Positions 37,549-57,011 of a stretch of 63,673 nt of DNA are shown here, one piece after another. Each line of letters begins with the position of its first letter. Position 1 is the stretch's first letter. The DNA comes from a virus. Location: IMG/VR virus record IMGVR_UViG_3300031251_000020, positions 1 through 63,673 of that record. One strand, 5' to 3'. Below the pieces are notes generated by a model, which saw only the letters and a program-made list of their open reading frames with translations, did no database searches and was not told where the DNA came from. Position numbers and translations under genes: made by a program.

Positions 37549-37764
37549 TCACGAGGTTAAGTGATCCCAGATTTTGATTTCGGTGCGTCGGATCGGCATA
37601 CTGCCTACTTCTGGATAGAGAGCTATGGGGTACGAAGTCCAGAACCTATGCGGCGTACCTACTCTCGGGCGGCTGTCAGGTGCAAACCGATAGTCCTTCG
37701 GCGTAGGATGCGTAAGTGCCAAGCCGTCGAGATTGCGTCGCCACCATTTCTTGTCCTCGCTCAT
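37549..37764 (-). CDS. WDHL-family small protein 1 (71 aa)
   Basis: Start ATG 37764 overlaps the stop of the primase-helicase gene (ATGA). N-terminus MSEDKKWWRRNLDG and C-terminus ALYPEVGSMPIRRTEIKIWD followed by HLTS. It is the most distant member from the 52-57 kb cluster of a ten-member family defined by a W(W)R N-terminal motif and EI.IWDHL C-terminus. The DNA encoding the C-terminus plus the following leader is itself repeated. Function unknown. Confidence 0.7.
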   Translation of the reverse strand: MSEDKKWWRRNLDGLALTHPTPKDYRFAPDSRPRVGTPHRFWTSYPIALYPEVGSMPIRRTEIKIWDHLTS

Positions 37765-40700
37765 AATTCGAGCATCCCTTGAAACACCGGATCGCCGTAA
37801 TTGAATTCGAGACACGGCTCCGATGCCGTGACCATCAGCGTGCCGGCACCCAGCCTGCTGCGCACTTCGACAACCCTGAACTGCTCGGCGAGCTGCTTGA
37901 AGATCAGCGGCGGTGTGAGGCCGCGCTCCTGCAGCCACTCCTCGAACGGCGCCTTGATCAGGCGCACCCAATGATCGTCCTCGCCGACGTGTATCCTGAC
38001 CGCCCGCATGCGGGTGATATCGCCTTTGAACACGATGCCCCCCTGCAGCGCGCCGACACCTGCCGGCTGCATGACGGGCCTGCCGGCCCCGCGGTGCATG
38101 ATGTTGGTCACCAGCGTGTACCCTTGGCGATGCTCGTTGAGGTAGCGGGACATGATGCCGATGACGTTGAGATCTTCGTGAATGTCCACCGTCGTCGTCT
38201 TGCGCTGGAAGCGCATCGACTGGAAGCGCTCGACGAGAAACGTGCCGAGCGCCGGCGCGTTGATGTCGGTGAGGCCGAGCTCGTTGGCGTAGTGCGCACC
38301 ACATATCAGCGTCGCCATGAGCGCCAACCAGAAACGTTCGTCGGCTTGAACCTTGTACTGCTGCTCGAGCCGACGCGACAGATCGGCGACGTCCTTGGCG
38401 ATGCGTGTATGGTTCGCTCCGAGAAACTGCGCGTACTGCAGGCCGGCAAATCCGTAGTTGTCATCGAGCGCGCCAATGATCGTCGCCGCGGCGGTGGGTT
38501 CGATCTGGCCGGTTACCCCCTTGGGTACCTCGTATTCAAACACACGGTAGAGCCCCGCTGCCGTCGTCTTTGTCTGACCGAGAATGTGGGCCAGCACGCT
38601 GCTGTTCGACGTGCTGCACAGCAGGGTCTGCCATGTGCCCGGCTCCCTGTAGCTGGTGTCGGCCGCGAGCCGCGACTTCTCTTTGCCGCTCGAAAGCTGG
38701 AACGCCAACTTCATGAATTTTTGGGTGTCCTCGTCGGTCTTCAACTCGTCCCAGAAGAGCGGCAGGTTCTTGATGTCACCGATCTTCTTCATCACGGAAT
38801 TTTGCGTATCGTCGAGCTGCTGGACAGCCCGCTGCGGGTGCCCCCAGACAGCCTGCGCAACCTTTAGCGCTGTTGTTTTTCCAATTCCAGAGTGTGTCGA
38901 ATAGGTACTTAGGTACAACCCCGTCTGACCAGTAAACCTGACCAGAGGCGCCGCGAACGAAGCGGCGAGTATTGCGTCTAGTGCAGGGCGCTGTTGCGAC
39001 GTGATGAGCTTCGACGCGGCCAGCCATGGGGCAATGTCTCCCGAAGGTTTGTACTGATTACTGAGCATTGGATCGGGATTGGCGCTCGGCCGCGGCACTG
39101 CCGTGCTCCACATGTGTCCGGCGTAGACGAAGCCCTCGAGCTTGCCGCCTTTGGTCGACCAGCCGAACGGCATCGAGTTGACGACGTTCTTGCTGTCGGC
39201 TCGCATCTTCTCGATCCATGCCACGAAGAAATCTCCTAGATCCTGAAGCCCCTGCCGGCCGGGCAGCATACCTTGCCGGGCGATCATCTTGCCGAACGCA
39301 TTTTTGTCCACGATGCTTTCGTAGGGCACCCGGATCTGGCGTTCGTAGCCTTGGTGGGTGTGGGTCGAGAAGTTGAGCACTGGCGGCTCCTGCTGGAGCC
39401 ACGGCTTCTCGATGACGAATGTCGTGATCGGCAGAAGCGTCTGCACGCCCTGATCGTCGGTTTCGACGCGGCTGATCAGGTTGTTGGCATCGTATTGGTA
39501 GTTCGATGGCAGGTCCGCCAGAGGTGTCGCGGTAGCAGGCGCCACCTGAAGTGCGCTCGCTGGAGCGCCCGGCGAAACATTACTTGCGACAACGGCTCCA
39601 TGGGCGTGCGCTTGAGATGGCGCCGCCACTTGTAGGCGAGCAAGAGGAGAGCTCCCGAGCGATAGCCGCGGGCAAGTTGCGCACTGAGGGGCGCCATAGG
39701 AAGCGATCGTCTGACAACGCGGCCATCCAAGATCACGCGCTCGCTGTGTCCCCTGCTGGCGATCATAGAATGCGTCAACGTCCGCGGCGCTGTAATTGGG
39801 GTGGCCTTGGCAAAGTTTGTGTGCAGTCGCCCGGCCACCTTGAGTAAACAAGCTGATGTTGATCGTCTGCAGCCATATCGGGTTGCTATTGTTGCTCGCT
39901 CCTCCAGTCGCGAGAGTATCGGCGAGGAATGGGCAGCCATTGGCGATCTCCTCGATTGTCGGAAGAAGGATCTCCATACCGGCCGCCAGCCCATCGGACA
40001 GACCCGGCAAGGTAACACTTGAAAACACCGCGGCAGGCGTCCCGAGCGTCGATCTGGTGACCGTGACAGCCTTGGGGACTGATGCCGAGTACATGCCGAA
40101 ATACGGCGCCAGCGGCCCTTCGAGAGCTTCGATGAACTGGTCGCCGTGGGTCTGACCTAGTTGGGTAACTGGTCGAGGTGGATCAGATTTATGGTTCCAC
40201 GTTCCCGGCACACGGAGCAATCGCACGCCGTCGACGATGCACTGAGTGTCGCCTCTAAATCCTTGCCCCACAAACGCAGCACAGAGAGCACCTGCCAGTC
40301 GGGCCCAACGATCATGGTCGATCGGGTCGACGAGTGTCCAATGCGCGTGAAAACCACCAGACCCGGAACTGATCGCGAAGGAGTGCAGCGGAAGGCGGAG
40401 GGCTTCACGGATGCGAACAAATTCGCTGACGGCCTCTTCTCGAGTGGCATATCCATGCTTGGGGTCCTCCGGCTTGACGTCGACGTCGATGTAGAGCGAC
40501 TTGTGACGGGCGATGTTGGTCTGCCCACGGATCGCAGCGTAATACTTGCGGTTTTTCTTGGAGAGCTTTTCCTCGGCAGTCCGCTGCGAGCTCATGCACA
40601 CATACACGTCGGTGCTGAGCGTGTTCGCCCACTCGATCGTGCGGGCTGCCTCTTCCGGTGAGCGACAGGCTCGGCCGGGCACCGCGACTGCCTGCTTGCC

Positions 40701-40826
40701 GTTTGGCCTCAGGAGCGGCTTGCCGGTCGTCTTGTCCGTCAGCCGGATGACGTAATGCACATTGACGTAGCTCGGCTGTTCGCCTTCTTGTGGCCACGGC
40801 AGCGCCCGAGCGAGAAACTCGCGCAT
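37761..40826 (-). CDS. Primase-helicase (AEP-like primase fused to DUF927-type ATPase)
   Basis: 1021 aa. The N-terminal third looks like an archaeo-eukaryotic-type primase: YIDVDV at residues 112-117 (metal-binding Asp pair) and SSGSGGFHAHW (~153-163) with the nucleotide-binding His. A Cys cluster (C..CATCPRL) near 380 may bind zinc. The C-terminal half has Walker A SGIGKTT near residue 645 and a downstream NLPLFWDELKTDE acidic motif, matching phage DUF927-type helicases. Primes and unwinds DNA at the fork with the polymerase encoded at 47725-49653. Confidence 0.85.
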   Translation of the reverse strand: MREFLARALPWPQEGEQPSYVNVHYVIRLTDKTTGKPLLRPNGKQAVAVPGRACRSPEEAARTIEWANTLSTDVYVCMSSQRTAEEKLSKKNRKYYAAIRGQTNIARHKSLYIDVDVKPEDPKHGYATREEAVSEFVRIREALRLPLHSFAISSGSGGFHAHWTLVDPIDHDRWARLAGALCAAFVGQGFRGDTQCIVDGVRLLRVPGTWNHKSDPPRPVTQLGQTHGDQFIEALEGPLAPYFGMYSASVPKAVTVTRSTLGTPAAVFSSVTLPGLSDGLAAGMEILLPTIEEIANGCPFLADTLATGGASNNSNPIWLQTINISLFTQGGRATAHKLCQGHPNYSAADVDAFYDRQQGTQRARDLGWPRCQTIASYGAPQCATCPRLSLGSSPLARLQVAAPSQAHAHGAVVASNVSPGAPASALQVAPATATPLADLPSNYQYDANNLISRVETDDQGVQTLLPITTFVIEKPWLQQEPPVLNFSTHTHQGYERQIRVPYESIVDKNAFGKMIARQGMLPGRQGLQDLGDFFVAWIEKMRADSKNVVNSMPFGWSTKGGKLEGFVYAGHMWSTAVPRPSANPDPMLSNQYKPSGDIAPWLAASKLITSQQRPALDAILAASFAAPLVRFTGQTGLYLSTYSTHSGIGKTTALKVAQAVWGHPQRAVQQLDDTQNSVMKKIGDIKNLPLFWDELKTDEDTQKFMKLAFQLSSGKEKSRLAADTSYREPGTWQTLLCSTSNSSVLAHILGQTKTTAAGLYRVFEYEVPKGVTGQIEPTAAATIIGALDDNYGFAGLQYAQFLGANHTRIAKDVADLSRRLEQQYKVQADERFWLALMATLICGAHYANELGLTDINAPALGTFLVERFQSMRFQRKTTTVDIHEDLNVIGIMSRYLNEHRQGYTLVTNIMHRGAGRPVMQPAGVGALQGGIVFKGDITRMRAVRIHVGEDDHWVRLIKAPFEEWLQERGLTPPLIFKQLAEQFRVVEVRSRLGAGTLMVTASEPCLEFNYGDPVFQGMLEL

Positions 40827-40850
40827 TCAACCCCCTGAAGTCCTCCTTGG

Positions 40851-40899
40851 AAGAAAAGACGCAGCGCACGCAAACCCTAGTCGGTCTACATGCGCTGCG
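40851..40899 (-). terminator. Rho-independent terminator in the leftward operon
   Basis: On the minus strand CGCAGCGCA (40899-40891) pairs with TGCGCTGCG (40868-40860) across a 22-nt loop, followed by TCTTTTCTT. It separates the ssDNA-binding-like gene from the primase-helicase gene, whose own SD (AAGGAGG) comes right after. Confidence 0.65.
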
Positions 40900-40920
40900 C
40901 CACACTCTCGGCTGGGGGGA

Positions 40921-42441
40921 TCAGCCGAGCAGCTTGCCGAGCTTGTCGTCGAGCGATGCCAGTGCGGCATCGTTCGAGGGGGCAGCACCAGCCGGCGGGG
41001 GCGGAGGAACGGGCGCCGTTACCTGCGCGGGTGCTGGCGGCGCGGCCGGGACGGGCACGGCTTCGAGGGTAGGAGCCGGCGACGGTGGGGCAGCCACGGC
41101 GCCCGTACGGCGACCGCGAGTGGCCTTTGGCGGGGCCTGCTGTGCCGCAAGATGCTCCACGAGCTTCGGCATGTAGTCCGCCATCTGCTCCGGCGTGAGC
41201 GCGCTCATTTCGGCAGGAGTGAGCTGCTTGAACGGCACTCGCACCAGACCTGCCGGGATCGGCCCCGGATCGGCCCCAGCGTCCGTGTTCATCTGCAGCG
41301 GCAGCGACGGCACGGGGGGAGCAGTCTGAACGACAGCAGGCGCAGGCGGCGGGGCGACAGGTGTGGGCGGTGCGGGCGGAGCCGCTACCACGACGGGCGC
41401 CGGCGGCTGCTTGACGAACATCTTGCCAGCCGTCATGAGCTGCTCGTCCGTCCAGCCGGACGCGAGGAACTGCTCGCGGGTGAACGTCTCGCCGGCCGCC
41501 ATCTGGTATTCGGGTGCTGGCGGGGCGGCAGGCACTGTCGAGGTGGGAGCGGGCGGAGTCGTGGGGACTGTCGGAGCCGCCGGTGTAGCAGCGGGCACAG
41601 CCACGCCCGCAGGGCCGCCGGCCACTGCACCGGCCGCGCTACCTGCGTGGGTAAGCGGCGCCGGCACCTCCGCCCTCACCTGATCGACCGCCTCCGACAA
41701 GATGCGCTTGGTGCGGGGGTCGTTCTGGATCTCGATCACCTTCTCGGCCTCGCCCGGGCTGAGAGCTCGCACCGCGGCCCAAGTGATCTTGGGGTAGGCC
41801 GACTGCATGTCGAAGCCGATCTGGGTGCGCACGGTATAGAACGCGTGACCGAACTGCTGCAGATCGGAATTGTACTTGCCCATGTCCTGTAGCGATGCCG
41901 GTGGCACTCGCAGCAGCATCGGGCCGCCGAACATCTCGTTGCCCATGTCGTCGGCCGGCACGACCACGAGACGCTTGCTGTCCTGACACGCCTTGCCCGG
42001 CTTGCCATTGGACAGCGTCTTGGAGCCCCAGACTGCCTTGGGACAGGTGGCGCACAGCTCGGACTGCTTGTGCGGCGACGCCGGATCGGGCGCCAGACCG
42101 TTGACGCTGAAGCAGTCGGGCGCTTCGCTGTCGCCCTCGGAATACTGACCCTCGTAGTAGATCTTGGCGACGGCGGGCGACGCGTGAGCGATGACGACGT
42201 CGATCGTCGGGCGCGGCTGCGGATGTCCGCCCGGTACGGTCGGCGGGATCACGAGATCGGTTTCGTCGCCGCGATACTTGATACGCCACACCTTGCCGCG
42301 CAGGGTGAGGATGGGGAAGCTGCCGCCGATGCCCTCGTTCAGGACCCCTGCCGGGACCTGCGACTGGTGGAAGACGGGTGCGGCCGCCCCGAGATGTGCC
42401 AGCGCATTCATGTTGCTCTGCGTGGTTGGTAGGTTGCTCAA
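40921..42441 (-). CDS. Putative ssDNA-binding/replication protein with Pro-rich tail
   Basis: 506 aa from TTG 42441 (SD GGAG, 6-base spacing). Residues 1-~260 form a folded domain: FPILTLRGKVWRIKYRGDET, VDVVIAHASPAVAKIYYEGQ and a four-Cys ribbon (C...NG....C.TCPKAVWGSK...C). The next ~200 residues are Pro/Ala-rich, with a helical LTPAEMSALTPEQMADYMPK insert, ending LASLDDKLGKLLG. The layout of a core, disordered linker and conserved tip is SSB-like. The core is common in podoviruses. ssDNA binding is inferred. Confidence 0.5.
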   Translation of the reverse strand: MSNLPTTQSNMNALAHLGAAAPVFHQSQVPAGVLNEGIGGSFPILTLRGKVWRIKYRGDETDLVIPPTVPGGHPQPRPTIDVVIAHASPAVAKIYYEGQYSEGDSEAPDCFSVNGLAPDPASPHKQSELCATCPKAVWGSKTLSNGKPGKACQDSKRLVVVPADDMGNEMFGGPMLLRVPPASLQDMGKYNSDLQQFGHAFYTVRTQIGFDMQSAYPKITWAAVRALSPGEAEKVIEIQNDPRTKRILSEAVDQVRAEVPAPLTHAGSAAGAVAGGPAGVAVPAATPAAPTVPTTPPAPTSTVPAAPPAPEYQMAAGETFTREQFLASGWTDEQLMTAGKMFVKQPPAPVVVAAPPAPPTPVAPPPAPAVVQTAPPVPSLPLQMNTDAGADPGPIPAGLVRVPFKQLTPAEMSALTPEQMADYMPKLVEHLAAQQAPPKATRGRRTGAVAAPPSPAPTLEAVPVPAAPPAPAQVTAPVPPPPPAGAAPSNDAALASLDDKLGKLLG

Positions 42442-42476
42442 GACGTTCTCCTGTTGTTGACGGACTGGTTACCTTA

Positions 42477-42911
42477 TCAGGTCGTTGTTAAAGCGCCGAC
42501 GAGTTCTTCCATTGAAATGCAAATTTGAGAAGCGAGTAGCGCCATCAGCTCTGGTTCTTCCCCGTCCCGCGTGAGGATGATCGTTCGCTTGCCGGCGCCT
42601 GCCATCCAACCCAATTCGAGATGGGCGGACCGCCCGCACGGCAGGAGGAGGACGCCGACATCGGCCCACTTCATGCCGTCGAAGTCGCTGTTGAAGCCGC
42701 GTTGCGCCAGTGGCTTAGCGAGCATCGACCGATACGTCGCGCTATCCCATGCCTCCCAGTTCGGGTCTAGCTCGGACCAACGAAAACCGTCTTTGATCCC
42801 GCCCGGCGGATTGCGGAAATCATAGACTTCATGTCCTGCCTGCCGAAGCGCTTCGACGGCCGCAGGCTGTTGCTGGTTACGCCAGCTCGACGCGAGATAG
42901 ATCTTGCTCAT
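42477..42911 (-). CDS. Nucleoside 2-deoxyribosyltransferase-like protein
   Basis: 144 aa. N-terminus KIYLASSWRNQQQPAAVEAL, GHEVYDFRNP and C-terminal GRSAHLELGWMAGAGKRTII match the nucleoside deoxyribosyltransferase / deoxynucleotide N-hydrolase fold (Y.AS....; D..R.P; S.....E.G...A.G). The Glu in HLELGW would be the catalytic nucleophile. May act in nucleotide salvage or base hydrolysis during infection; substrate unknown. Confidence 0.75.
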   Translation of the reverse strand: MSKIYLASSWRNQQQPAAVEALRQAGHEVYDFRNPPGGIKDGFRWSELDPNWEAWDSATYRSMLAKPLAQRGFNSDFDGMKWADVGVLLLPCGRSAHLELGWMAGAGKRTIILTRDGEEPELMALLASQICISMEELVGALTTT

Positions 42912-42914
42912 GAT

Positions 42915-43313
42915 CTAGGTCGCGCTCGGTCGGCGAACGCTGATCGTCTGCATGACGGTGAACTTGATGCCGGGCGGGAGCTGCTGGTTGGCGTCCGCCC
43001 ATGCCCGCACCGCCGGTGCGTTGGCCCGCAGGTCGGCAAGGTCCCAGTCGCCCATGTTGACGACGTGTGCGCGGAACGCCTCCATGTCGGACACCGTCGC
43101 CGACGCCCGTTCGGTGGCAGTGATCGTGCCGCCCTCGGTCTTCATGGACTTGACGTTGGCTTTTTGCAACACGTCGGCGAAGATGCCATCGAGCATCTGT
43201 CGAGCCTCGCGGTAAGGCTTGAGCTCTTCCTCGTGCTTCTTCTCGAGTTCCTTGATCTTGTCGCGGAGATCGACATATTGCTTCGCTCTCTTCGCTACAT
43301 CGACGTCTGACAT
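42915..43313 (-). CDS. Conserved phage protein, coiled-coil N-terminus, 132 aa
   Basis: I choose ATG 43313 (an in-frame ATG at 43340 is possible). RAKQYVDLRDKIKELEKKHE forms a coiled coil; the second half has KTEGGTITATERASATVSDM, WDLADLRANAPAVRAWADAN and PPGIKFTVMQTISVRRPS. This combination is common in podovirus early operons. It resembles Gam-like nuclease inhibitors in layout only; function unknown. A promoter lies upstream at 43342-43370. Confidence 0.6.
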   Translation of the reverse strand: MSDVDVAKRAKQYVDLRDKIKELEKKHEEELKPYREARQMLDGIFADVLQKANVKSMKTEGGTITATERASATVSDMEAFRAHVVNMGDWDLADLRANAPAVRAWADANQQLPPGIKFTVMQTISVRRPSAT

Positions 43314-43341
43314 AATCCAACCTTTCCTAGAAGGTAACACT

Positions 43342-43370
43342 TAGATAATGGGTAATGTAACACTTGTCAA
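43342..43370 (-). promoter_or_regulatory. Probable sigma70 promoter
   Basis: Minus strand: TTGACA (43370-43365), 17-nt spacer beginning AGTGTTAC, TATCTA (43347-43342). The -35 plus flank TTGACAAGTGTTAC is identical at 57597. Followed by a leader-like ACCTTCTAGGAAAGGT and the gene at 43313. Confidence 0.5.
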
Positions 43371-43374
43371 GGGG

Positions 43375-43542
43375 TTAATTTATCAACTGATAGATGACGC
43401 AGCCTTTATACGGCCCCCTAATAGCGCGCTCGCGCCATACTTTGCACCACCACACATAGCGGCCGGTACCCATAGCGCCGAGGCGCACTGGATACCATGC
43501 GAACCAGAAATCCGTCTTGAAACAATCGTTATAGCTCAACAT
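43375..43542 (-). CDS. Hypothetical basic Trp-rich protein, 55 aa
   Basis: Begins at a leader variant (GTAACACATG). Product MLSYNDCFKTDFWFAWYPVR, then GRYVWWCKVWRERAIRGPYK. Basic and unusually rich in Trp/Tyr. The VWWCKVWR stretch recalls the W(W)R motif of the WDHL family, but the WDHL end is absent. Confidence 0.5.
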   Translation of the reverse strand: MLSYNDCFKTDFWFAWYPVRLGAMGTGRYVWWCKVWRERAIRGPYKGCVIYQLIN

Positions 43543-43545
43543 GTG

Positions 43546-43758
43546 TTACGCCTCCCCCGGATAGGCATCCCGAGCGGCGAGCTTGGCAAACTTCTCGTAC
43601 AGCTCTGCCTTGCACCACGCTTCGTAGAATAGCGGCATGAGTTTTTGACAGCGCTCGGCCTCCCATCCGGCGTAGCGGGTCGGAGTGCCCTTCTCTTCAA
43701 AGAAGTAAATCACCATTCGGACGAAACCTTCATCGTCCGCGTTCTTGTAGACTGCCAT
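43546..43758 (-). CDS. Hypothetical helical protein, 70 aa
   Basis: Starts at GGGAGTAACACATG. Product MAVYKNADDEGFVRMVIYFF, then AERCQKLMPLFYEAWCKAEL, mostly helical. Follows the helicase gene by three bases. Unknown function. Confidence 0.55.
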   Translation of the reverse strand: MAVYKNADDEGFVRMVIYFFEEKGTPTRYAGWEAERCQKLMPLFYEAWCKAELYEKFAKLAARDAYPGEA

Positions 43759-43761
43759 GTG

Positions 43762-45285
43762 TTACTCCCTGAACATGTCCAGTAATTCCGTCTGCATGTT
43801 CTGGCTGTTGATCAGCAGACTGTAGATCCGCTTCTCAGCGGCCGTCGACTGCAGATGGATGTACTGTTGCTTGCGCGTCTGCCCGACACGTCGGATGCGC
43901 GCGTTCGCTTGATCATAGATCTCGAGCGACGTGATCGGCCCGAACCAGACAATCGTGTCGGCAGCAGTCAACGTAAGTCCATGCGCCATCACTTGAGGAT
44001 GGGCGTTGATGATCTCGTACTGCGGCGTGTTCTGGAACGCGTGAAAGATCTCGCCACGTTTACCTGCCGAGGTATCGCCCGACACGGACACGACGTCATA
44101 GCCGCCTTTCTTCATGGCGGCCTCGAGCCCGGCGAGCGCATGCTTGAACGCCGAGAACACAATTACCTTGCCTTGCTTGGCGGCAAGTATGTCCATCAAC
44201 GCCTGCAGGCGGGCATCGTTGTCGAGCTGCACGACAGTGCCCTTGTTGTCGTAGACGTAGCCGAGCGAGATCTGCAGGAGCTTGTTCAGCGCAGCGCCGG
44301 CGTTGGCCGCCGTGATCGCCTGTCCGTTGACCATACCGAAACAGTGCTTGCGCATCTCTTCATAGATCGTCTTCTGGCGCGCGCCCATGTCGACGTCGAT
44401 GCGCCGGGAGATGTATTGCGGCAGCTCCGTGACGTCCTCCAGCGCGAACCGCACGCTGGGCTGCAGCACCTTGTACGCCTGTTCGTTTGCATCCGGCCGC
44501 GGCACCCACTTGAACGCCGTGACCTTGTACATGAGCTGCTCACGGAACCGGCCGAAGCGCATCGGCACGGTGTGCGGCGTCACGATCTTGGCCTGCCCGT
44601 ACACGTCGGTCGGCGCGTGCGGTGTCGGGGCGCCGGTCAGCCCGTACACTCTTTCGCGGGTGTCGGCGAGTTTCTTCATGAGCTTCGATCGGTCGGTGGC
44701 GTTGCGATAGACAGCTAGCTCGTCTAGGCACAACACGTCGATGTCGGGCCGCTTCGTCAGCTCCTCGTATATGGTTCCGACGCCGTCATGGTTGATGATG
44801 TAGATGTCGGCGTCGCGCGCCAGCGCTTCGAGGCGCTTGGCTCGGGTGCCGTAAACGACCTCGCATTTGAGGTGCGGCACAAAATCAAACGCTTCGCGCA
44901 GCCATGTGAATTTGAGCGTGGACAAAGGTGCCACGATCAACATTTTGTTGGCCTGCTTCAGTCGTTTAAGCGCATCGAACGCCCACAACATGCAGACGCT
45001 TTTTCCGACCCCCATGCCAGACAATACATAGGCACGCTTGTTTTCAGTGAGAAGTTCGACTGTTTCTTTTTGTACCTCAAACGGTGGCTTACCTTCTGGG
45101 TGCGGAAAATTGTAGTACAATGTGACAGGCGACGGCGCGTCAATGCCGAGATTGCGCAGCATAATTACGCTACCGAGATCGTGTTTGATCGTACCTACGT
45201 CTGCGCCAGTCGACTTAAAATCGGGAAATAGGTTAATAATATCGGAGCGTGCTGGCACAGAGAGGTAGTGTTCTGCTTCGATCAT
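43762..45285 (-). CDS. SNF2-like superfamily 2 helicase
   Basis: 507 aa. Walker A SGMGVGKS (residues 89-96), motif II LCLDELA (186-192, DELA replacing DEAH), YGLTGAPTP as motif III, KVIVFSAFKHALAGLEAAMK as motif IV region, and DQANARIRRVGQTRKQ as motif VI, the SNF2-type Q..RI.R.GQ signature. Found in many phage replication modules; may remodel forks or restart replication. Start ATG 45285 overlaps the HNH gene stop by four bases. Confidence 0.88.
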   Translation of the reverse strand: MIEAEHYLSVPARSDIINLFPDFKSTGADVGTIKHDLGSVIMLRNLGIDAPSPVTLYYNFPHPEGKPPFEVQKETVELLTENKRAYVLSGMGVGKSVCMLWAFDALKRLKQANKMLIVAPLSTLKFTWLREAFDFVPHLKCEVVYGTRAKRLEALARDADIYIINHDGVGTIYEELTKRPDIDVLCLDELAVYRNATDRSKLMKKLADTRERVYGLTGAPTPHAPTDVYGQAKIVTPHTVPMRFGRFREQLMYKVTAFKWVPRPDANEQAYKVLQPSVRFALEDVTELPQYISRRIDVDMGARQKTIYEEMRKHCFGMVNGQAITAANAGAALNKLLQISLGYVYDNKGTVVQLDNDARLQALMDILAAKQGKVIVFSAFKHALAGLEAAMKKGGYDVVSVSGDTSAGKRGEIFHAFQNTPQYEIINAHPQVMAHGLTLTAADTIVWFGPITSLEIYDQANARIRRVGQTRKQQYIHLQSTAAEKRIYSLLINSQNMQTELLDMFRE

Positions 45286-50020: not shown

Positions 50021-50232
50021 GACCGCATCATCCCCAACAACCGTGTCTTGATGATCTTCTTCACCATCACGTCGTCGACCTGCCCAAAGTGAAAGCCGAT
50101 GTCGAGTGTGCTCCCGTCGCCAAACAGGGCTGTCACGATCTTGTGCCTGCCGCCGTTGAACCATCGGATCTCGATGGCCCCAGCTTCAAGCAAAGCCCGC
50201 TTGGCAGCCTGTTTGGCTTTGCGGGACATCAC
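50017..50232 (-). CDS. HicA-like small basic protein, 71 aa
   Basis: Product MMSRKAKQAAKRALLEAGAI, then EIRWFNGGRHKIVTALFGDG. The sequence G(A)xEIRWxxGGRHK resembles the dsRNA-binding fold of HicA-type proteins, but without the catalytic His in a clear GHHxKF context, so it is only a shape similarity. Overlaps both neighbours by four bases. Confidence 0.45.
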   Translation of the reverse strand: MMSRKAKQAAKRALLEAGAIEIRWFNGGRHKIVTALFGDGSTLDIGFHFGQVDDVMVKKIIKTRLLGMMRS

Positions 50233-50450
50233 ACGACGCTTACGACGACGCTGGTCGCGGGCTTGCGCCGGGTCGGCAGCGCGCCGACGAAGCGCCGGAG
50301 CAGCTCGGCCCGGCTTAGCTGCATGCGGTCGCAGTAAGCGTCGAACTTCTTCGCCGTGCTCGTGCGCATGCGGAACGACCGGATGATGTCGAAGTCCCCA
50401 GCCGTGCGACGGCGCAGCGGCATCTTGCCTCGACCCTTTTCCTTAGCCAT
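50229..50450 (-). CDS. Putative ribbon-helix-helix DNA-binding protein, 73 aa
   Basis: RSFRMRTSTAKKFDAYCDRM followed by QLSRAELLRRFV fits a ribbon-helix-helix (beta strand FRMRT, helix A, S-R-A-E helix B). N-terminus is Lys/Arg-rich. Preceded by a promoter at 50495-50523 and two leader dyads, so it could be an autoregulated transcription factor for the operon. A candidate for the protein reading one of the repeated motifs of this genome (inference). Confidence 0.55.
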   Translation of the reverse strand: MAKEKGRGKMPLRRRTAGDFDIIRSFRMRTSTAKKFDAYCDRMQLSRAELLRRFVGALPTRRKPATSVVVSVV

Positions 50451-50494
50451 GAATTACCTCTCGTGTTTACCTGTTCAGGTGACAAGTGTTACCT

Positions 50495-50523
50495 AATGTA
50501 GGTATTGTTTATGGGCCTGTCAA
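50495..50523 (-). promoter_or_regulatory. Probable sigma70 promoter with dyad
   Basis: Minus strand: TTGACA (50523-50518), 17-nt spacer, TACATT (50500-50495). The -10 lies inside the dyad TACCTAATGTAGGTA, and a second dyad (ACCTGAACAGGT) follows at ~50478-50467 before the gene at 50450. A repressor binding the dyad would block this promoter. Confidence 0.55.
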
Positions 50524-50751
50524 TAGGGAACGTGGCAGTATTTGCCAGTCCCAAATACGTATCTCTTGGCGGCGTGTCGGGAAGCTCTGCCTTGGGTACA
50601 GACGGCACGGCTGACTTACGAACAACATGCTTAGTCTAGTGTTGAGTAGGTCCGGGAAAAAACTTTCCTCTTCGACCACACCGTCTAAAAAATACTTACC
50701 GTGACCGGCATACCAATATCCGACACGCCAACACACTAATTGCGTAGCCAT
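50509..50751 (-). CDS. WDHL-family small protein 2 (80 aa)
   Basis: Product MATQLVCWRVGYWYAGHGKY, ending LYPRQSFPTRRQEIRIWDWQ plus a unique nine-residue tail. CWRVGYW matches the N-terminal WWR.xY motif and LYP...PTRR.EI.IWD the C-terminal motif. Its 3' end overlaps the promoter at 50495. Confidence 0.65.
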   Translation of the reverse strand: MATQLVCWRVGYWYAGHGKYFLDGVVEEESFFPDLLNTRLSMLFVSQPCRLYPRQSFPTRRQEIRIWDWQILPRSLLTGP

Positions 50752-51041
50752 CCGACCCTCTTCGGCTTGGCCGATGTGGCGTTCAAATCCAGCACCGCTC
50801 GCACCCGCTGCACGCTGGCGAGCGCCTTCACTTGGGCCTGCAGCGCGCCCTCACGTAGCTCCGCCGCACTCTCTCGGGCGGACACATTGGCCTCCCGCTC
50901 GGCCACGGCATGCTCGCGGGCAGAGACTTCCTCCGCGGCACGCTCGAGAAAGTCGCCGATCTTGGCTGTTTCGGCGGGGCTGATCTGCCGGAACTGGACG
51001 CGCAGGATGGCGTCAATGGCATCGCGAATTTCTGACATCAT
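50736..51041 (-). CDS. Coiled-coil protein, ~101 aa
   Basis: Product MMSEIRDAIDAILRVQFRQI, then a long coiled coil (AEEVSAREHAVAEREANVSA, AELREGALQAQVKALASV) with a basic tip. The first or second ATG may be used. Overlaps both neighbours. Unknown function. Confidence 0.55.
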   Translation of the reverse strand: MMSEIRDAIDAILRVQFRQISPAETAKIGDFLERAAEEVSAREHAVAEREANVSARESAAELREGALQAQVKALASVQRVRAVLDLNATSAKPKRVGWLRN

Positions 51042-51298
51042 TCGTCCTCCGTCAATTCAACGTCGAGATTACTGTCGACAGACAGTGTGACTGCGGGAGA
51101 GATCGACACATCCGGCAGATCGGGGTCGTCGAAGCTACAGTCGCTGATCGTGATGTCGTCGAACTCTCCGTCAGGCAGTTCGGCTGTGCCGCCATCCATC
51201 GCACGCCATAAGGTACGTGCCTCTTCAACGGACGAAGCCTTGATGTAAGCCGTCGCCTCGATGGTGATCTCGGCTCGGTAAAGTTTCTTCTCTGGCAT
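51038..51298 (-). CDS. Acidic protein, 86 aa
   Basis: Product MPEKKLYRAEITIEATAYIK followed by ASSVEEARTLWRAMDGGTAE and a strongly acidic tail (CSFDDPDLPDVSISP ... ELTEDE). The YRAEITIEATAYI(K)ASSVEEA start is a common small phage domain. An acidic DNA-mimic-like character is possible but unproven. Confidence 0.6.
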   Translation of the reverse strand: MPEKKLYRAEITIEATAYIKASSVEEARTLWRAMDGGTAELPDGEFDDITISDCSFDDPDLPDVSISPAVTLSVDSNLDVELTEDE

Positions 51299-51301
51299 GT
51301 G

Positions 51302-51505
51302 TTACTCCTCTGTGATGCCGGCCGCTTCGGCATCGGCTATAGCTATGTTGACTTGGTCAAGAAGCGAAACGCCGGTCGTGACCGACGATCCTGTTGATTG
51401 GACACGCACTAGAGCTAAAGTCGCGTGGGGATTTTTCACTACTTCCTTCAACGCTTTGAGCATAGCGCGCGCAGCGTAAGGGGCGAGCGGAGCGAGTGTA
51501 GGCAT
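51302..51505 (-). CDS. Hypothetical protein, 67 aa
   Basis: ATG 51505 follows a leader variant (GAGGTAACGCTTATG). Product MPTLAPLAPYAARAMLKALK, then HATLALVRVQSTGSSVTTGV. Mixed alpha/beta. Unknown. Confidence 0.5.
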   Translation of the reverse strand: MPTLAPLAPYAARAMLKALKEVVKNPHATLALVRVQSTGSSVTTGVSLLDQVNIAIADAEAAGITEE

Positions 51506-51564
51506 AAGCGTTACCTCTTCGGGTTTGTCGCGCACTCCGCAGCGAAGATGCTGCGCGCGACTGG

Positions 51565-52353
51565 TTAAATATCAACGATCGGATCGAAGCGCTGCGGCCA
51601 GTCCGAGTAGCTAACTTGCTTGACGTCAGCCAGCATCATGCTCACCGCCGCGTTCTGCTTGGGTGCGTCGGGAAGCATGAGCCCTTCCGATATGATCTGG
51701 TTGGCACGCTGGATGCCGGGGAGCATTTCCTCCGGCACCGGCCGGCGCGAGGCCGACGACGGTTTGGCAAGTCTGCGTGCCAGCGCTGGATCGTACTTGC
51801 TGATCAGCGGCACGAGACCAGGCAGCAGGCTCCTCGCATGCAGCCTGTCGCCCTTGTCGCAGAACTCGTTGATCCAGTTGAACACGGCGCGCACGAGGCC
51901 GTAGTTGGTGGCGCTCACCATCCACTCGCGAATATTCTCGTGGATCTGATCGACGAGCTTCGGACAAACATCGTCGTGCAGCTTGGGACTGTTGCCGGCC
52001 CATCGGGGGAAGCGGCCGACTTGGTTATCCAGCCAACCGAACACTACAGATGCGTTACTGCCGCCGAACTCATACAGCGGACTGTCGGACGATGCTTGCC
52101 ATCGCTGCTTGGGAAGGTCGATGCGGCAAACATAGGAGGAAGAGTACATGCGGCCGCCGTAATGCCGCTCCACCTGCAGTGACAGTTCCCGCTGATCCGG
52201 TGGCAGGATCGTTCGCCGCCACTGGCCGATGTCGATATCGGTCTTGCGGATCAGGTTGTTGTGCTTCATGGCGAGCTTGGCGATCTGAAGTCGGATCGCT
52301 TCGCTGTCCAGACCGTTGAATGCTGTCGTGTACTTCGGACCGTGACTTGACAT
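51565..52353 (-). CDS. Hypothetical protein, 262 aa
   Basis: ATG from a leader variant (GAGGTAACACATATG). Product MSSHGPKYTTAFNGLDSEAI, HYGGRMYSSSYVCRIDLPKQ, VRAVFNWINEFCDKGDRLHA, then LPGIQRANQIISEGLMLPDA. No recognised motif. It lies directly downstream of the WDHL cluster and the VWA gene in transcription order, so it may belong to the same functional block. Confidence 0.6.
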   Translation of the reverse strand: MSSHGPKYTTAFNGLDSEAIRLQIAKLAMKHNNLIRKTDIDIGQWRRTILPPDQRELSLQVERHYGGRMYSSSYVCRIDLPKQRWQASSDSPLYEFGGSNASVVFGWLDNQVGRFPRWAGNSPKLHDDVCPKLVDQIHENIREWMVSATNYGLVRAVFNWINEFCDKGDRLHARSLLPGLVPLISKYDPALARRLAKPSSASRRPVPEEMLPGIQRANQIISEGLMLPDAPKQNAAVSMMLADVKQVSYSDWPQRFDPIVDI

Positions 52354-52371
52354 ATGTGTTACCTCGTTGGG

Positions 52372-52644
52372 TCAATCGTTTGTATATTGGTCCCAGATGG
52401 GGACTTCCTCCCGGCGGAAGAACTCCGGCGGGGTAGCTGTTCTCTCGAGTTGCGCCGACCATGCGCCATAGCGCTTTTTCACTTGTTCCGCCTCGGCAAG
52501 AAAGCTGTTCAGTCTGTCGATCATGTAAAAGATTGTTGATCCGTCGCAAATGTGCGCATCGACCTGCACGAGTTGCCAGCCGCAGATATCACGCCACATG
52601 CACGGTCTGTAAATCGCAACCCAGCAGGTAGCACGGTACTGCAT
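52372..52644 (-). CDS. WDHL-family small protein 3 (90 aa, divergent)
   Basis: Begins at a perfect dyad leader (ACCTCCGCAGGTAACACATG). Ends FFRREEVPIWDQYTND: the IWD core is kept, HL is replaced by QY. N-terminus MQYRATCWVAIYRPCMWRDI is Trp/Cys-rich. The middle is a longer helix (INSFLAEAEQVKKRYG-like), so this member has gained or exchanged a middle segment. Confidence 0.6.
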   Translation of the reverse strand: MQYRATCWVAIYRPCMWRDICGWQLVQVDAHICDGSTIFYMIDRLNSFLAEAEQVKKRYGAWSAQLERTATPPEFFRREEVPIWDQYTND

Positions 52645-52647
52645 GTG

Positions 52648-52869
52648 TTACCTGCGGAGGTTTAGTGGAATGAAATCCCAAATTTGGATTTCAGTCATTG
52701 TGTCTGGCGGTTGAAGAGGGGCTGGCAGCGATATATAGAACACACCGTCGCTATCCGCAGACGATATATCGAGCAAGCGTGTCGGTTGCCAACTATTGCG
52801 AGGTTCAACGTAAGCTCTCGTGCCGTCGCGATAGTACACGCAACGTCGCCAGCCTTCAGGCACTGCCAT
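52648..52869 (-). CDS. WDHL-family small protein 4 (73 aa, divergent)
   Basis: Leader with dyad ACCTTGAGAGGT. Product MAVPEGWRRCVYYRDGTRAY, ending PPDTMTEIQIWDFIPLNLRR. WRRCVYYRDG matches the N-terminal motif and TEIQIWD the C-terminal one. Three bases separate it from family member 3. Confidence 0.65.
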   Translation of the reverse strand: MAVPEGWRRCVYYRDGTRAYVEPRNSWQPTRLLDISSADSDGVFYISLPAPLQPPDTMTEIQIWDFIPLNLRR

Positions 52870-52872
52870 GTG

Positions 52873-53085
52873 TTACCTCTCAAGGTGATCCCAGATAGGA
52901 ATTTCGATGCTGCGAACTGGTGTTTCGCCTAAGCACGTAGGTCGAGACATATATCTCACGCTACCGCAGCGCAGCGGCTCATCGTAAAATTTCAAAAGCC
53001 CCATTCCCCTCACTGTGTGGGAAATCACAGTGCGTTTGCCGTGCTTATCGTACCCAACCCGGCACCACTTCTCAGGCGCTGCCAT
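52873..53085 (-). CDS. WDHL-family small protein 5 (70 aa)
   Basis: ATG 53085 lies inside the 3' end of the VWA gene. Product MAAPEKWCRVGYDKHGKRTV, ending GETPVRSIEIPIWDHLER. A typical member: KWCRVGYDKHG at the start, EIPIWDHLER at the end. Confidence 0.7.
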   Translation of the reverse strand: MAAPEKWCRVGYDKHGKRTVISHTVRGMGLLKFYDEPLRCGSVRYMSRPTCLGETPVRSIEIPIWDHLER

Positions 53086-54427
53086 CGTTCGGCACCTGCA
53101 CGACTTTGCCCCACGGGTACTTCTTCGGCTCGCCGCTGATGTCACCCCAAATCACAGGGTAATCCGTCGGCTCGCGCGACGGGAACGTGCCGTCACCGTC
53201 GGTGAGGTAGACCAGCGCGTCGACGTTCTCGAGGCCCATCTCCTTGATCATCTTGAACACGGGCTTGAAACTCGTGCCGCCGCCGCCCTTGGCGCCCTTG
53301 CAGTAGGCCGTGTGCAGGTCTGTCGGGTCCTCGATGTCGTCGACACGGTGGACCTTGGCATCGCACCACATGAGCACGATGCGCCGCGGCCGCAGATCCT
53401 CGAGGATGCCGCCCACTTCACTGAAGAAGCGCTCGATCAATTTCGGCACGGCGTATATGGAACCGGAAGTATCGGCTCCTATCACGATCGTGCCGGCGCC
53501 TTTGCCGCTCTTGCCCGGCGCGCCGATGCCTCGGGTGATCAATCGGCGGTCGAGCCGGCGATAGTCGTAGGAGCTGCCGCCGACGTGCCGTGCGAACAAC
53601 GCCTCGATATGGTCGGTCCAGTGCACCTTGGGCTTGAGCAGCTCCTCGAACATCTTCTCGAGCGCTTCGGGCAGCTTTCCTGCCGAGCGGGCCACCGTCA
53701 TGGCGCCGATGACTGCCTGCTGCCACTGCTGCGGGTTGGGCTGCGCCTCCGTGCTGTCGGGGTCCTGACCGGAGCTTGCCCCGGGAGGTAAGTGCTCGTC
53801 GAACTGGCCTTGAGCGAAGCGCGAACCGGCTCCTGTTTGGTCGGGTTTGTCTCCTCCGCTGCCTTCGCCAGCGTCCGAACCTTCGCCCTTTCCACCGCCT
53901 CCCTTCTTGGCCTCCTCGAAGATCCGATGGTACGCCTCCTGCCAGCTCGTATTGCCGTCGGCGATCTTGGGATCGAGCAGCCAGCCCTTCTTGCACTCGC
54001 CGATCTTGGCTTCGACCAGCATGGCGTTGATGACGAAGTCCTGCGCGAAGTTGGCGATCAGCGGATGGTACGGCAGGCTCTTGCCGCCCCACAGCACGGG
54101 GAGCTGGCCGCGCACATGCGCATGTCTCTGCGCCAGATGCAGATGCATGGCGTGGGCGATCTCGTGACAGCAGCAAAACACCTGCTGCTGCAGGGTCAAG
54201 CCGAAGAAGAACTCCGGGTTGGCCATGATGCGCTTGCCGTCGGTCGCCATGGTTGGGTTGGGTCTGCCCGACGGTAGTTCCGTCGTGAAGTAGATCACGT
54301 TGTCGGTGTCGTCCGGGTTCATCATACGATGAAGGAGGTACGAAAAAGCGGGGACAGACCAAATTAGTTTGGACTTACATTCGTTCCATTTCTGCAATTG
54401 TGCAGGTGTAAGAGCTATCGACTTCAT
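53072..54427 (-). CDS. VWA-domain protein with HExxH metallopeptidase-like N-terminus (DUF2201-type)
   Basis: 451 aa. N-terminal domain: HEIAHAMHLH at residues 88-97, a zincin-type HExxH. Residues ~170-235 are a Gly/Asp/Ser-rich linker. C-terminal von Willebrand factor A domain: MIDAS motif IGADTSGSIY (D319-S323), a threonine-bearing GGGGTSFKPVF and VYLTDGDGTFP. This is the DUF2201 layout, known to work with MoxR-type AAA+ ATPases; that partner is encoded at 55370-56482 in the same operon. Role in infection unknown; may be a chaperone or protease complex. Confidence 0.88.
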   Translation of the reverse strand: MKSIALTPAQLQKWNECKSKLIWSVPAFSYLLHRMMNPDDTDNVIYFTTELPSGRPNPTMATDGKRIMANPEFFFGLTLQQQVFCCCHEIAHAMHLHLAQRHAHVRGQLPVLWGGKSLPYHPLIANFAQDFVINAMLVEAKIGECKKGWLLDPKIADGNTSWQEAYHRIFEEAKKGGGGKGEGSDAGEGSGGDKPDQTGAGSRFAQGQFDEHLPPGASSGQDPDSTEAQPNPQQWQQAVIGAMTVARSAGKLPEALEKMFEELLKPKVHWTDHIEALFARHVGGSSYDYRRLDRRLITRGIGAPGKSGKGAGTIVIGADTSGSIYAVPKLIERFFSEVGGILEDLRPRRIVLMWCDAKVHRVDDIEDPTDLHTAYCKGAKGGGGTSFKPVFKMIKEMGLENVDALVYLTDGDGTFPSREPTDYPVIWGDISGEPKKYPWGKVVQVPNDGSA

Positions 54428-54637
54428 GTGTTACCTCTGCAGGTTAAGTGATCCCAGATGGGGATTTCGGTACGACGAATGGGAAGATTTTCTCTTCGAG
54501 GATAAAGCACCTCCGGCCACGAATACCAATCTCCGAATTGGTCAGGAGATCTAGCATGAAAATGAAACTGACTAACCGGACCAAAGCTGTTCGGCAAGCC
54601 AGTCTTCTTAACCGTAAGAACATCTCCACCAATACAT
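54424..54637 (-). pseudogene. WDHL-family small protein 6, frame disrupted near its start
   Basis: A consensus leader with dyad ends in ATG at 54637, but that frame gives only MYWWRCSYG and a stop. One base out of phase the frame continues as VKKTGLPNSFGPVSQFHFHA through VLYPRRENLPIRRTEIPIWD and HLTCRGNT. YWWRCSYG is exactly the expected family N-terminus, so one base has been gained near 54611 (+1 shift needed after TAC), or the gene uses programmed frameshifting, or the base is a sequencing error. The stop codon lies in the next leader. Confidence 0.6.
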
Positions 54638-54640
54638 GTG

Positions 54641-54889
54641 TTACCTCTCAAGGTGATCCCAGATGGGGATCTCCACAATGTCGTTCATGTAGAACGGGGC
54701 TTGTCGTGCGAAGCGGACACTGCCGCTCCACACGCGGTGGTGATTATCGACTGTCAAAACAGGACTACGATATGTTCCTGCTCTGATGTCGAACATGAAC
54801 CGCGCAGCTCCTCCACCGGATTTGCTGAGGAAATAGCATGCGAGTATCCAGTCGCCCGCATCGGCAATGCCGACTTGGATCTGCTCACG
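54641..54889 (-). CDS. WDHL-family small protein 7 (start uncertain)
   Basis: The frame ends APFYMNDIVEIPIWDHLER at 54641. Upstream it reads GDWILACYFLSKSGGGAARF, giving a W.L.CYF version of the N-terminal motif. No ATG/GTG/TTG start occurs in frame near the end of the previous gene; a GTG at 54888 overlaps its stop (GTGA) but is one base out of phase. So it either uses a rare start or is frame-shifted like its neighbour. Confidence 0.5.
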   Translation of the reverse strand, partial: REQIQVGIADAGDWILACYFLSKSGGGAARFMFDIRAGTYRSPVLTVDNHHRVWSGSVRFARQAPFYMNDIVEIPIWDHLER

Positions 54890-55127
54890 CCTCGCTTTTG
54901 TCGCGCGTCTCCTTATCCTCCAGATCAAGATCCTCCTTGCCGGCGACGAAGTCGTCGGAGTAGAGATGCAAGTCGGGCTTGGGCGAGCCGGGGTCCATGG
55001 CACCGTGAGCCAGATGGGCCGCGCCCCAGACGTCGCGGGCGCTGTTGCGCACGACTTCGAGGATCGTCTTCTGGAGTTCCTCGTTGCTAGTGTCGAAGCC
55101 GACGACGAGGTGGTATTCCTTCTTCAT
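54885..55127 (-). CDS. Hypothetical protein, 80 aa
   Basis: Leader GAAAGGTAACACATG. Product MKKEYHLVVGFDTSNEELQK, TILEVVRNSARDVWGAAHLA, ending in an acidic, charged tail (DLDLEDKETRDKSEA). A ferredoxin-like alpha/beta pattern; not recognised. Start overlaps the upstream stop (ATGA). Confidence 0.6.
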   Translation of the reverse strand: MKKEYHLVVGFDTSNEELQKTILEVVRNSARDVWGAAHLAHGAMDPGSPKPDLHLYSDDFVAGKEDLDLEDKETRDKSEA

Positions 55128-55360
55128 GTGTTACCTTTCGGGGTTGTTTGTATATGGTCCCAGATCGGGACTTCAGTTCGACGCCTCGGGAGACAATCCT
55201 CCCGAGGATAGAGTTTCATAGGGAACGAGCACCACGTGTAAGTTTGGCCAACGGTGAGCTCGATCATCGTGTTTCTTTTTTCAGGGCCGCTACTTACTAG
55301 AGCCAAACCGCCTCCCCGATTATAGACCCAACGCCACCACTTACCTGTATAGGTCTTCAC
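55124..55360 (-). CDS. WDHL-family small protein 8 (78 aa)
   Basis: GTG start at 55360 with SD GAGGGGG. Product VKTYTGKWWRWVYNRGGGLA, ending LYPREDCLPRRRTEVPIWDH and IQTTPKGNT. The last codons read straight through the leader of the next gene (GGT AAC ACA TGA = GNT-stop). The DNA for WDHIQT also contains an exact ACCATATAC motif. Confidence 0.7.
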   Translation of the reverse strand: MKTYTGKWWRWVYNRGGGLALVSSGPEKRNTMIELTVGQTYTWCSFPMKLYPREDCLPRRRTEVPIWDHIQTTPKGNT

Positions 55361-55369
55361 TGCCCCCTC

Positions 55370-56482
55370 TTATTGAGATATCAAAGCAATCAAACCTGCG
55401 TTCTTCGGCGTGAACTTCTTGAGGAACGCCGGATGTGATAGCAGTCGGAAGTTGCGCTTGATGGCTGCGGCCCCAAAGGTTACCTGAAAGTCGGGCGGCA
55501 GCCGCAGGGCATAGTCGATCACCTTGTCGGCCGTCTCCGGCGTGATGCGGTGGGCACAGTCGTACGCTACCAACATCTTGCCGTCCGGCTTGGACGGGAT
55601 CTCCGTGCCGGCAGGGTCCTTGACGATCGTCTCGAAGTCGGGAACCTCCGTCTTCATGCGGCACCACGTCAGGAAGTGGTCAGCGGCCGCGGCGCCGATC
55701 AGGCCAGACGCCATCTCCGTCATCATCGAAAGCTGCCTCTCGTCGCCGACCGGGAGCGCGCCGCTGGCATCCTGCATCTTGCTGAAGAGATGCGAGAGCA
55801 TGACCAGCGTCCGCGGCGTGCAGTATGGCCCCTGCTTGTCCGGCACCTTCCCGCTGAACACGACGTCGATGTTGCGCTTGGCGAACGCCGTGTAGAGCGG
55901 GTCGATGTTGTTGCGCACGGCCCAGTCTTCCCACGCGTTGACGTCGGGCAGGATGTGCACCTCGGCCCGCCGGTTGATGATGAAGTCGTACTCCTTCGTC
56001 GAGCCCGAGCGGTCTTCCGCCCGGTTGGCGGCGGTCATGATGCCGATGCCGTCGTGGACGAACCAGTTGCCGGCTACGCCCTTGAGGATGACCTGCGCCA
56101 GCGCCCGCTTGGTGTCGGGGTCGACCTTGTCCCACTCGTCGAAGAAGACGATACCGCGCTTGTAGCTGTTCATCGGCTTGCCTTGACTGGACATCATCCA
56201 CGGTGGCATGGTGAACTCGCTGATGGCGACTTCCTCGGTGTCACCGTCGGAGGTAACCATCGAGCGCTTGCCCGGCACGAGGTAGCCCAGCACGTCGGGC
56301 GGCGTGAGCGCGGCCGCCATGATGGTGCACAGGCCCCACTCGAAGCCGTCCTGCTGCTTGTACTTCTCGACCAATCCCTCGACCGTCTCGGACTTGCCGA
56401 GTCCGGGCGCCGATACGAGCTGCACGGTGATGCGGGCATCAAGATAGTGACGGGCGACGTTGGCGAATTGCGTGAGGTTCAT
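55370..56482 (-). CDS. MoxR-type AAA+ ATPase
   Basis: 370 aa. Walker A SAPGLGKS (residues 24-31), Walker B GIVFFDEWDK (~110-119), sensor-type IGIMTAANRAED, and arginine-finger-like NRRAEVHILP. The motifs and insertions (ALTPPDVLGYLVPG; CTPRTLVMLSH) are those of MoxR/RavA-like ATPases, which act with VWA proteins; the VWA partner is at 53072-54427. Two WDHL-family genes and one unrelated gene lie between the two partners. Confidence 0.88.
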   Translation of the reverse strand: MNLTQFANVARHYLDARITVQLVSAPGLGKSETVEGLVEKYKQQDGFEWGLCTIMAAALTPPDVLGYLVPGKRSMVTSDGDTEEVAISEFTMPPWMMSSQGKPMNSYKRGIVFFDEWDKVDPDTKRALAQVILKGVAGNWFVHDGIGIMTAANRAEDRSGSTKEYDFIINRRAEVHILPDVNAWEDWAVRNNIDPLYTAFAKRNIDVVFSGKVPDKQGPYCTPRTLVMLSHLFSKMQDASGALPVGDERQLSMMTEMASGLIGAAAADHFLTWCRMKTEVPDFETIVKDPAGTEIPSKPDGKMLVAYDCAHRITPETADKVIDYALRLPPDFQVTFGAAAIKRNFRLLSHPAFLKKFTPKNAGLIALISQ

Positions 56483-56516
56483 GTGTTACTTCTCCTGTGT
56501 TGCCTATGAGAGGCAG

Positions 56517-56759
56517 TTACCCGTCTAGGTGATCCCAGATAGGAATTTCGATGCGTCGAACGGGCAGGCTCGCCTTCGTCGGGTAGAGCGCCACGGGAAA
56601 ATACGCTACGCCAAAGTAACGCGCGGTGCTCACGAGCTCCGCACCGTGCCCGGCGAGAGTACTGTATTTCCGCGGCTGCCAATTAGGCTTCTCTCCCAAA
56701 GGCAAGTGCACGCGCCACCACTTCCCTTGACTTGGCCGTAACTGCCCTCGCCTGCTCAT
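56517..56759 (-). CDS. WDHL-family small protein 9 (80 aa)
   Basis: Dyad leader ACCTTGAGAGGTAACACATG. Product MSRRGQLRPSQGKWWRVHLP, ending LYPTKASLPVRRIEIPIWDH plus LDG. Typical member: KWWRVxL start, VALYP...LPVRR.EIPIWDHL end. Confidence 0.72.
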   Translation of the reverse strand: MSRRGQLRPSQGKWWRVHLPLGEKPNWQPRKYSTLAGHGAELVSTARYFGVAYFPVALYPTKASLPVRRIEIPIWDHLDG

Positions 56760-56762
56760 GTG

Positions 56763-57011
56763 TTACCTCTCAAGGTGATCCCAGATAGAAATTTCGATGC
56801 GGCGTGTTGGTAGGGAGGCGAGGTCGGGATAGAGCTTCATCGGCATGGGGGAGTGCCGGATGAAGCCAAAATCCTGATGCCTTATGAAGGGTTGGCAGCT
56901 CGTGTGCGTGACATATCGTGTGCTCCCGAGCACTGTGTGACACTGAGATGTCTTGCCTCTGTATGTCAAACTAGACACCCAGCGGAAACACCACCATTCA
57001 TACTTCGCCAC
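56763..57011 (-). CDS. WDHL-family small protein 10 (82 aa)
   Basis: Product MAKYEWWCFRWVSSLTYRGK, ending LYPDLASLPTRRIEISIWDH plus LER. Start lies within the 3' end of the upstream gene. The last family member toward the operon's promoter side; the cluster 52372-57011 holds eight of the ten. Confidence 0.72.
   Translation of the reverse strand: MAKYEWWCFRWVSSLTYRGKTSQCHTVLGSTRYVTHTSCQPFIRHQDFGFIRHSPMPMKLYPDLASLPTRRIEISIWDHLER

Follow-up and report, generated by a model that had tools for sequence, protein, structure and literature searches.

The MoxR-type ATPase and VWA protein of the N4 gp24/gp25 type (phrog_1297 and phrog_1314, Schitoviridae) form a pair that accompanies the replication genes, and its two genes are direct neighbours in EcP1 and Pastis, both N4-like phages. 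Small early host-takeover proteins of the T7 type, such as Ocr, gp2 and gp5.9, lie between essential genes, and several of them act on one host enzyme. Here we analysed a virus record of 63.7 kb from IMG/VR (IMGVR_UViG_3300031251_000020, positions 1 to 63,673; the whole 63,673-nucleotide stretch is called the window, and its genome G000), for which matches to a portal/head-tail adaptor and an internal virion protein suggest a podovirus-like phage. The window carries a gene pair of the N4 type, into which, unlike in EcP1 and Pastis, a further small gene (MKKE) and members of a multi-copy family of small proteins, the WDHL family, are inserted; no counterpart of this family was found in N4. The T7 proteins are a functional analogue only, being mostly single copy, mutually unrelated and devoid of a shared genome-specific tail. 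Comparison of related genomes establishes the WDHL family, the gene boundaries (slots) that it occupies, its divergence, its overlaps with neighbouring genes and the behaviour of its C-terminal tails.

A sequence-only reading of the window had pointed out ten leftward genes with a common C-terminus, eight of them within 4.7 kb amid the MoxR-VWA pair. Searching the six-frame translation of the window with the pattern [EQ][IV]x[IVL]W[DE] located ten E[IV]xIWD tails, all on the minus strand at the stops of these ten genes, and no other. Eight of the copies fell within 52372-57011 (4.64 kb), interleaved with the MoxR-type ATPase and DUF2201/VWA genes. The proteins of the family are 70-105 amino acids (aa) long and mostly basic, and are defined by a C-terminal RRxEIx[IVL][WF]-type segment a few residues before the stop. 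The E[IV]xIWD core of the proposed LYP...LP.RR.EI.IWDHL end was present in 10/10 window copies, but the full LYP..LP.RR type motif in only about 6/10. The proposed W(W)R N-terminus, an aromatic/basic strand, appears loose: its W is near-invariant in the window alignment, but among the relatives several copies lack it or have it displaced.

The route suggested for finding relatives, a profile of the ten copies, failed, as neither the 10-row family alignment nor the DNA tail pattern recovered any relative from viral contigs. Searches with the MoxR and DNA polymerase genes succeeded and gave two further lineages, G002 (IMGVR_3300005530_000028) and G006 (IMGVR_3300038443_001475). A third record, G001, was 99.9% identical to G002 and was counted with it as one lineage, being the same phage. 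The family is conserved in these related phages, with 6 copies in G002/G001 and about 11 in G006, and together with the 10 of G000, 27 copies were tabulated. A hidden Markov model (HMM) built solely from the G002 and G006 copies was then run on the open reading frames (ORFs) of the window. Its top eight hits were eight window copies, five of them with E between 2.7e-9 and 2e-6; the lowest-scoring of the eight had E 0.036, and the next ORF 0.092. Blind clustering of small ORFs placed 9/10 window copies in one group, and the largest cluster never exceeded 3 in five control phages (lambda, T7, Medea1, EcP1 and Pastis). The window-free profile and the control phages rule out chance or composition as the origin of the set. 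Hence, judged by sequence, the ten genes are one real family that is not confined to the window contig but occurs in three related phage lineages. The copies and their conserved neighbours are as follows.

56763..57011, minus strand: copy 10, slot A, ends RRIEISIWDHLER; GTG start 14 nucleotides (nt) into the upstream 133-aa gene; independent HMM E=1e-8
56517..56759, minus strand: copy 9, slot A, ends RRIEIPIWDHLDG; independent HMM E=2.7e-9
55370..56482, minus strand: MoxR-type AAA+ ATPase (N4 gp24 type), a neighbour outside the family; phrog_1297 E=2.9e-58; 57-64% identical among the three phages
55124..55360, minus strand: copy 8, slot B, ends RRTEVPIWDHIQTTPKGNT; stop overlaps the next start (ATGA); independent HMM E=2.9e-7
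54885..55127, minus strand: MKKEYHLV protein (MKKE gene), 80 aa, conserved neighbour between MoxR and VWA; 45-52% identical in G002 and G006
54641..54868, minus strand: copy 7, slot C, ends EIPIWDHLER; core tail present, independent HMM not above noise
54424..54640, minus strand: copy 6, slot C, ends RRTEIPIWDHLTCRGNT; independent HMM E=9.8e-7
53072..54427, minus strand: DUF2201 metallopeptidase-like/VWA protein (N4 gp25 type), neighbour; PF13203 E=2.1e-23, PF09967 E=9.3e-17, phrog_1314 E=7.6e-79
52873..53085, minus strand: copy 5, slot D; start (ATG) sharing 14 nt with the end of the VWA gene, likewise in both relatives; independent HMM E=0.016
52867..52909, minus strand: shared 3'-end/ribosome-binding site (RBS) module, coding strand ...GCATCGAAATTCCTATCTGGGATCACCTTGAGAGGTAACACATG; shares 28-32 identical nt with the ends of copies 7, 9 and 10
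52648..52869, minus strand: copy 4, slot D, ends EIQIWDFIPLNLRR; independent HMM E=0.036
52372..52644, minus strand: copy 3, slot D, the most diverged, ends EEVPIWDQYTND; core tail only, missed by the independent HMM
50509..50751, minus strand: copy 2, slot F, ends QEIRIWDWQILP; DWQ sub-type, common to one G002 copy; independent HMM E=0.0029
37549..37764, minus strand: copy 1, slot H, after the primase-helicase, ends RRTEIKIWDHLTS; independent HMM E=2e-6

Two starts were corrected: to 37764 for the 37549 gene and to 53085 for the 52873 gene.

Searches for known relatives of the family were negative, which supports the view that it is undescribed so far; the sequence-only reading had not recognised it either. 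The window copies matched nothing in PHROGs below E 0.18, and for 20 members no convincing match was obtained in Pfam (best 0.059), NCBIfam (best 0.0017) or PADLOC (none). The family profile had no match in the PDB, and tblastn with single members gave no credible relative among 50,697 phage records. A match to phrog_33250 (E=4e-5) concerned one arginine-rich G006 copy only and was not confirmed by tblastn, and a match to Pseudomonas phage Medea1 (E=8), an unrelated temperate phage, was attributed to chance. The family HMM found no copy in the VWA/MoxR relatives L035-L040 and L049-L054, the Rhizobium phage and G003, the MoxR profile had no match in bacterial and archaeal genomes, and no description of the family was found in literature searches.

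Each genome has 6-11 copies, placed at gene boundaries that the genomes have in common, within and close to the segment from MoxR-VWA to the DNA polymerase. In G000, G002 and G006 alike, copies adjoin MoxR, fill both intervals flanking the MKKE gene, that towards MoxR and that towards VWA, and follow VWA. In 3/3 genomes the first post-VWA copy has an ATG start that reaches 14 nt into the VWA gene. In G000 and G002 the copy following the 133-aa gene likewise has its start, a GTG, 14 nt within that gene. These conserved start overlaps mark such copies as positional orthologues with base-level precision, but identity between their proteins is only 29-34%, compared with 57-64% for MoxR, 54-62% for VWA, 45-52% for MKKE and 39-49% for a 101-aa gene; five of the six flanking genes compared lie at 39-64%. 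The copies also have a lower G+C content at third codon positions (GC3), 0.45-0.78 and mostly 0.5-0.7, versus 0.73-0.90 in most neighbours. These data bear out the earlier proposal of repeated duplication with a fast-changing middle. Body similarity between genomes showed no dependence on slot (permutation p=0.65), so that slot orthology of the bodies was rejected and positional orthology was seen solely in the start overlap. The lack of a slot signal fits rapid change or exchange of bodies. No genome pair at intermediate distance was found for a measurement of selection, as G001 and G002 are too alike.

The tails were uniform within each genome and different between genomes. IWDHL is the ending in G000, the six G002 copies end in VFx[DN]LRR or a variant, and the about eleven G006 copies end in I[DN][ILV]W plus 1-4 residues, the tail stopping right after the aromatic residue. 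This aromatic is F in 6/6 G002 copies and 0/21 elsewhere; D follows it in 10/10 G000 copies and 1/17 elsewhere, and D or N stands two residues before it in 0/10 G000 copies and 15/17 elsewhere (Fisher p 1e-6 to 8e-6 for the tail differences, with copies treated as independent). An alternative tail, I[WF]DWQ, is written with identical GAC TGG CAA codons at 50509-50751 of G000 and L010:3936-4172 of G002, in different slots. A family-tail-like ending, VRKEVEIWDKAAD, was also noted in an 89-aa protein of G006 (L023:13977-14246), homologous to the window protein at 57729-58007, which does not end in this way.

The last codons of a copy often form the Shine-Dalgarno sequence of the next gene, as in GAGAGG-TAA-cacATG in G000, CGGAGG-TAA-cATG in G002 and TGGAGG-TAA or TGGGAG-TAA in G006, and the GNT endings represent GGTAACACATG read in frame. 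The terminal LER/LRR residues are thus partly a by-product of the RBS. This raises the strongest rival explanation, namely that the copies are translational bridges filling junctions so that ribosomes pass between essential genes, with the constant end an embedded Shine-Dalgarno sequence and the body of little importance. The overlap of exactly 14 nt with the upstream gene in slots A and D, the many tails with these motifs right before the stop and a next start within a few nt, and the low GC3 and codon periodicity of the copies all fit this explanation. However, the W/Y/P positions and RRxEIxIW are kept between genomes at the protein level with different codons, two G002 copies retain LRR/LKK although their Shine-Dalgarno sequence sits after the stop, and the G006 junctions with five tandem copies need no bridge. 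The conserved V-F of G002 is written GTG TTC, GTA TTT or GTC TTT, and I[DN][ILV]W in G006 likewise uses mixed codons; in the sequences of both genomes, protein-level selection on the tail is visible. Accordingly, a purely DNA-level tail, such as a regulatory repeat in frame, was rejected as the whole explanation, and a partial contribution remains. Translational bridging probably contributes to the tail, and as an account of the family we consider it unlikely.

The identity between copies is limited to short 3' stretches. Four copies of the window have 28-32 identical nt through the tail beside unrelated bodies, and in 3/4 of them the identity reaches the RBS and the next ATG. Such near-identical 3' ends point to recent recombination or conversion at the 3'-end/RBS module, and recombination at the shared 3' end in the window is likely on this evidence.

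AlphaFold2 was run twice, with different members and alignments, and predicted a small beta sheet each time (mean predicted local distance difference test, pLDDT, 71 and 75). The constant region was the best predicted part, with means of 10-residue blocks up to 88 and 92 (best blocks about 82-92), and in the second model the tail residues form the final strand. The constant end is therefore probably part of the predicted fold and not merely a tag. Small basic beta proteins present in many copies for different sites could also be nucleic-acid-binding accessories of replication. Most of the 27 copies have an isoelectric point >8.5, with a net charge up to +15 and a richness in W/Y/F, and the copies lie within the replication module; nevertheless, several are acidic or neutral (52372, 52648 and 54641), no fold match was found, and a DNA-binding role leaves the turnover of bodies unexplained. 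We regard this role as quite improbable.

The sequence-only reading had further suggested that the constant C-terminus binds the MoxR/VWA complex, the copies being adaptors or substrates recruited through it. The pair is encoded in 3/3 family-bearing lineages, where copies flank it, and relatives with the pair sometimes carry another multi-copy small family. Yet the pair matches 411-414 phage records of the same collection in which single-member tblastn found no credible WDHL relative, and EcP1 and Pastis have nothing between the two genes. Copies also stand far from the pair at other gene boundaries (37549 and 50509), and the tail differs between genomes whose MoxR and VWA proteins are 54-64% identical. 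Folding and RBS overlap already explain the tail in part. The suggestion did not hold up, and we judge such recruitment very unlikely.

The explanation we tentatively prefer, and would place a little short of even, is a repertoire of host-directed proteins that have one scaffold in common and owe their diversity to duplication and 3'-end recombination. Each copy would be a small protein, built on the common scaffold, that inhibits a bacterial enzyme or defence factor or acts as its decoy. Overlaps of starts and Shine-Dalgarno sequences pack the copies tightly into their operon, which would be an early or middle one. Duplication and recombination across the shared 3'-end/RBS module would supply new bodies, and the constant end would be held by folding, by the overlapping RBS and perhaps by a phage-specific partner. 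The host direction, the timing and the role of the tail we infer, and an arms race among phage and host is suggested by the divergence. A different role for the genome-specific tail is that of a docking tag for a phage-specific hub, with many fast-changing effector bodies plugged into one complex and the tails of all copies changing in concert by 3'-end gene conversion when the hub changes; we give this little credence.

Several observations weigh against a host-directed repertoire. A 262-aa neighbour is equally divergent (25-33% identical), the low GC3 also fits weakly constrained sequence, and relaxed constraint could be an alternative source of the fast divergence. AlphaFold2 confidence was only moderate, and Foldseek with both models found nothing below E 1.4, with no solved or predicted structure alike. 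Damage or an unclear start is seen in some copies: copy 7 (54641) has no clear ATG/GTG start, its N-terminus extending toward the preceding gene; copy 6 (54424) opens with MYWWRCSYG but changes reading frame near the N-terminus, and is either a frameshifted copy or a sequencing error; and the G002 copy at 2008-2166 (L010:2008-2166) is truncated, having a family-like N-terminus, MRLWWYKLIYNWTG, and no constant C-terminus. Damaged copies, near-identical 3' ends beside unrelated bodies and the absent slot signal would also suit cassettes that are neutral or selfish, have no selected function and are spread through recombination of one repeated RBS module with another. We consider such cassettes the least probable explanation, given that three lineages, with 54-64% identity between their core proteins, have kept the family, mostly without loss of frame, and that its genome-wide tail uniformity is encoded by different codons.

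Among the early genes of phages, many are small and unnamed and escape homology searches. The tagged WDHL family makes copies recognisable across lineages despite nearly unalignable bodies, and its conserved slots, genome-specific ends and DNA-level 3' copying provide a testable model for the renewal of small host-directed phage proteins. Similar layouts with unrelated families in relatives, including cultured Rhizobium phages, would open the way to experiment. Multi-copy small proteins (AMLLG...DADTMEP) occur in the Rhizobium phages RHph_TM3_14A, TM27A, TM27B and TM29, with about 14 tiny paralogues in the early region of a phage whose MoxR and VWA proteins are 39% and 44% identical; their starts and stops overlap. 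In contrast to WDHL, these are unrelated in sequence and have their constant part towards the N-terminus. In RHph_TM3_14A (MN988472.1; L018/L019/L020), the about 14 AMLLG..Y...DADTMEP paralogues lie within 21650-40323 and are annotated as hypothetical. Two AMLLG members had no convincing Pfam or PHROG match, and one member searched against the phage set matched only the four RHph_TM phages.

A second array was found in L049 (IMG/VR contig 3300032282_004049; MoxR 47% identical), with six small paralogues that resemble the window family in their variable bodies and a constant C-terminus overlapping the next start, but are unrelated in sequence and have an acidic tail (GYLIPLEDDDE). At L049:6790-8319, these six GYLIPLED paralogues are 62-80 aa long, five being consecutive and one following an unrelated ORF, and the consecutive ones overlap the next start. 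No small family of three or more was present in the parts covered of L035-L039 and L050-L054. In this small sample, the data suggest that multi-copy tiny families are a habit of this phage group. L040:2087-6095 contains six LLGW paralogues, two ending YERxFGLLRR, that are possibly related to AMLLG. In the window itself, similar ORFs (ASHVTRN..., RARQKLTRTRQKRMN...) occur near both contig ends (579-923 and 62612-63012), possibly as related terminal regions.

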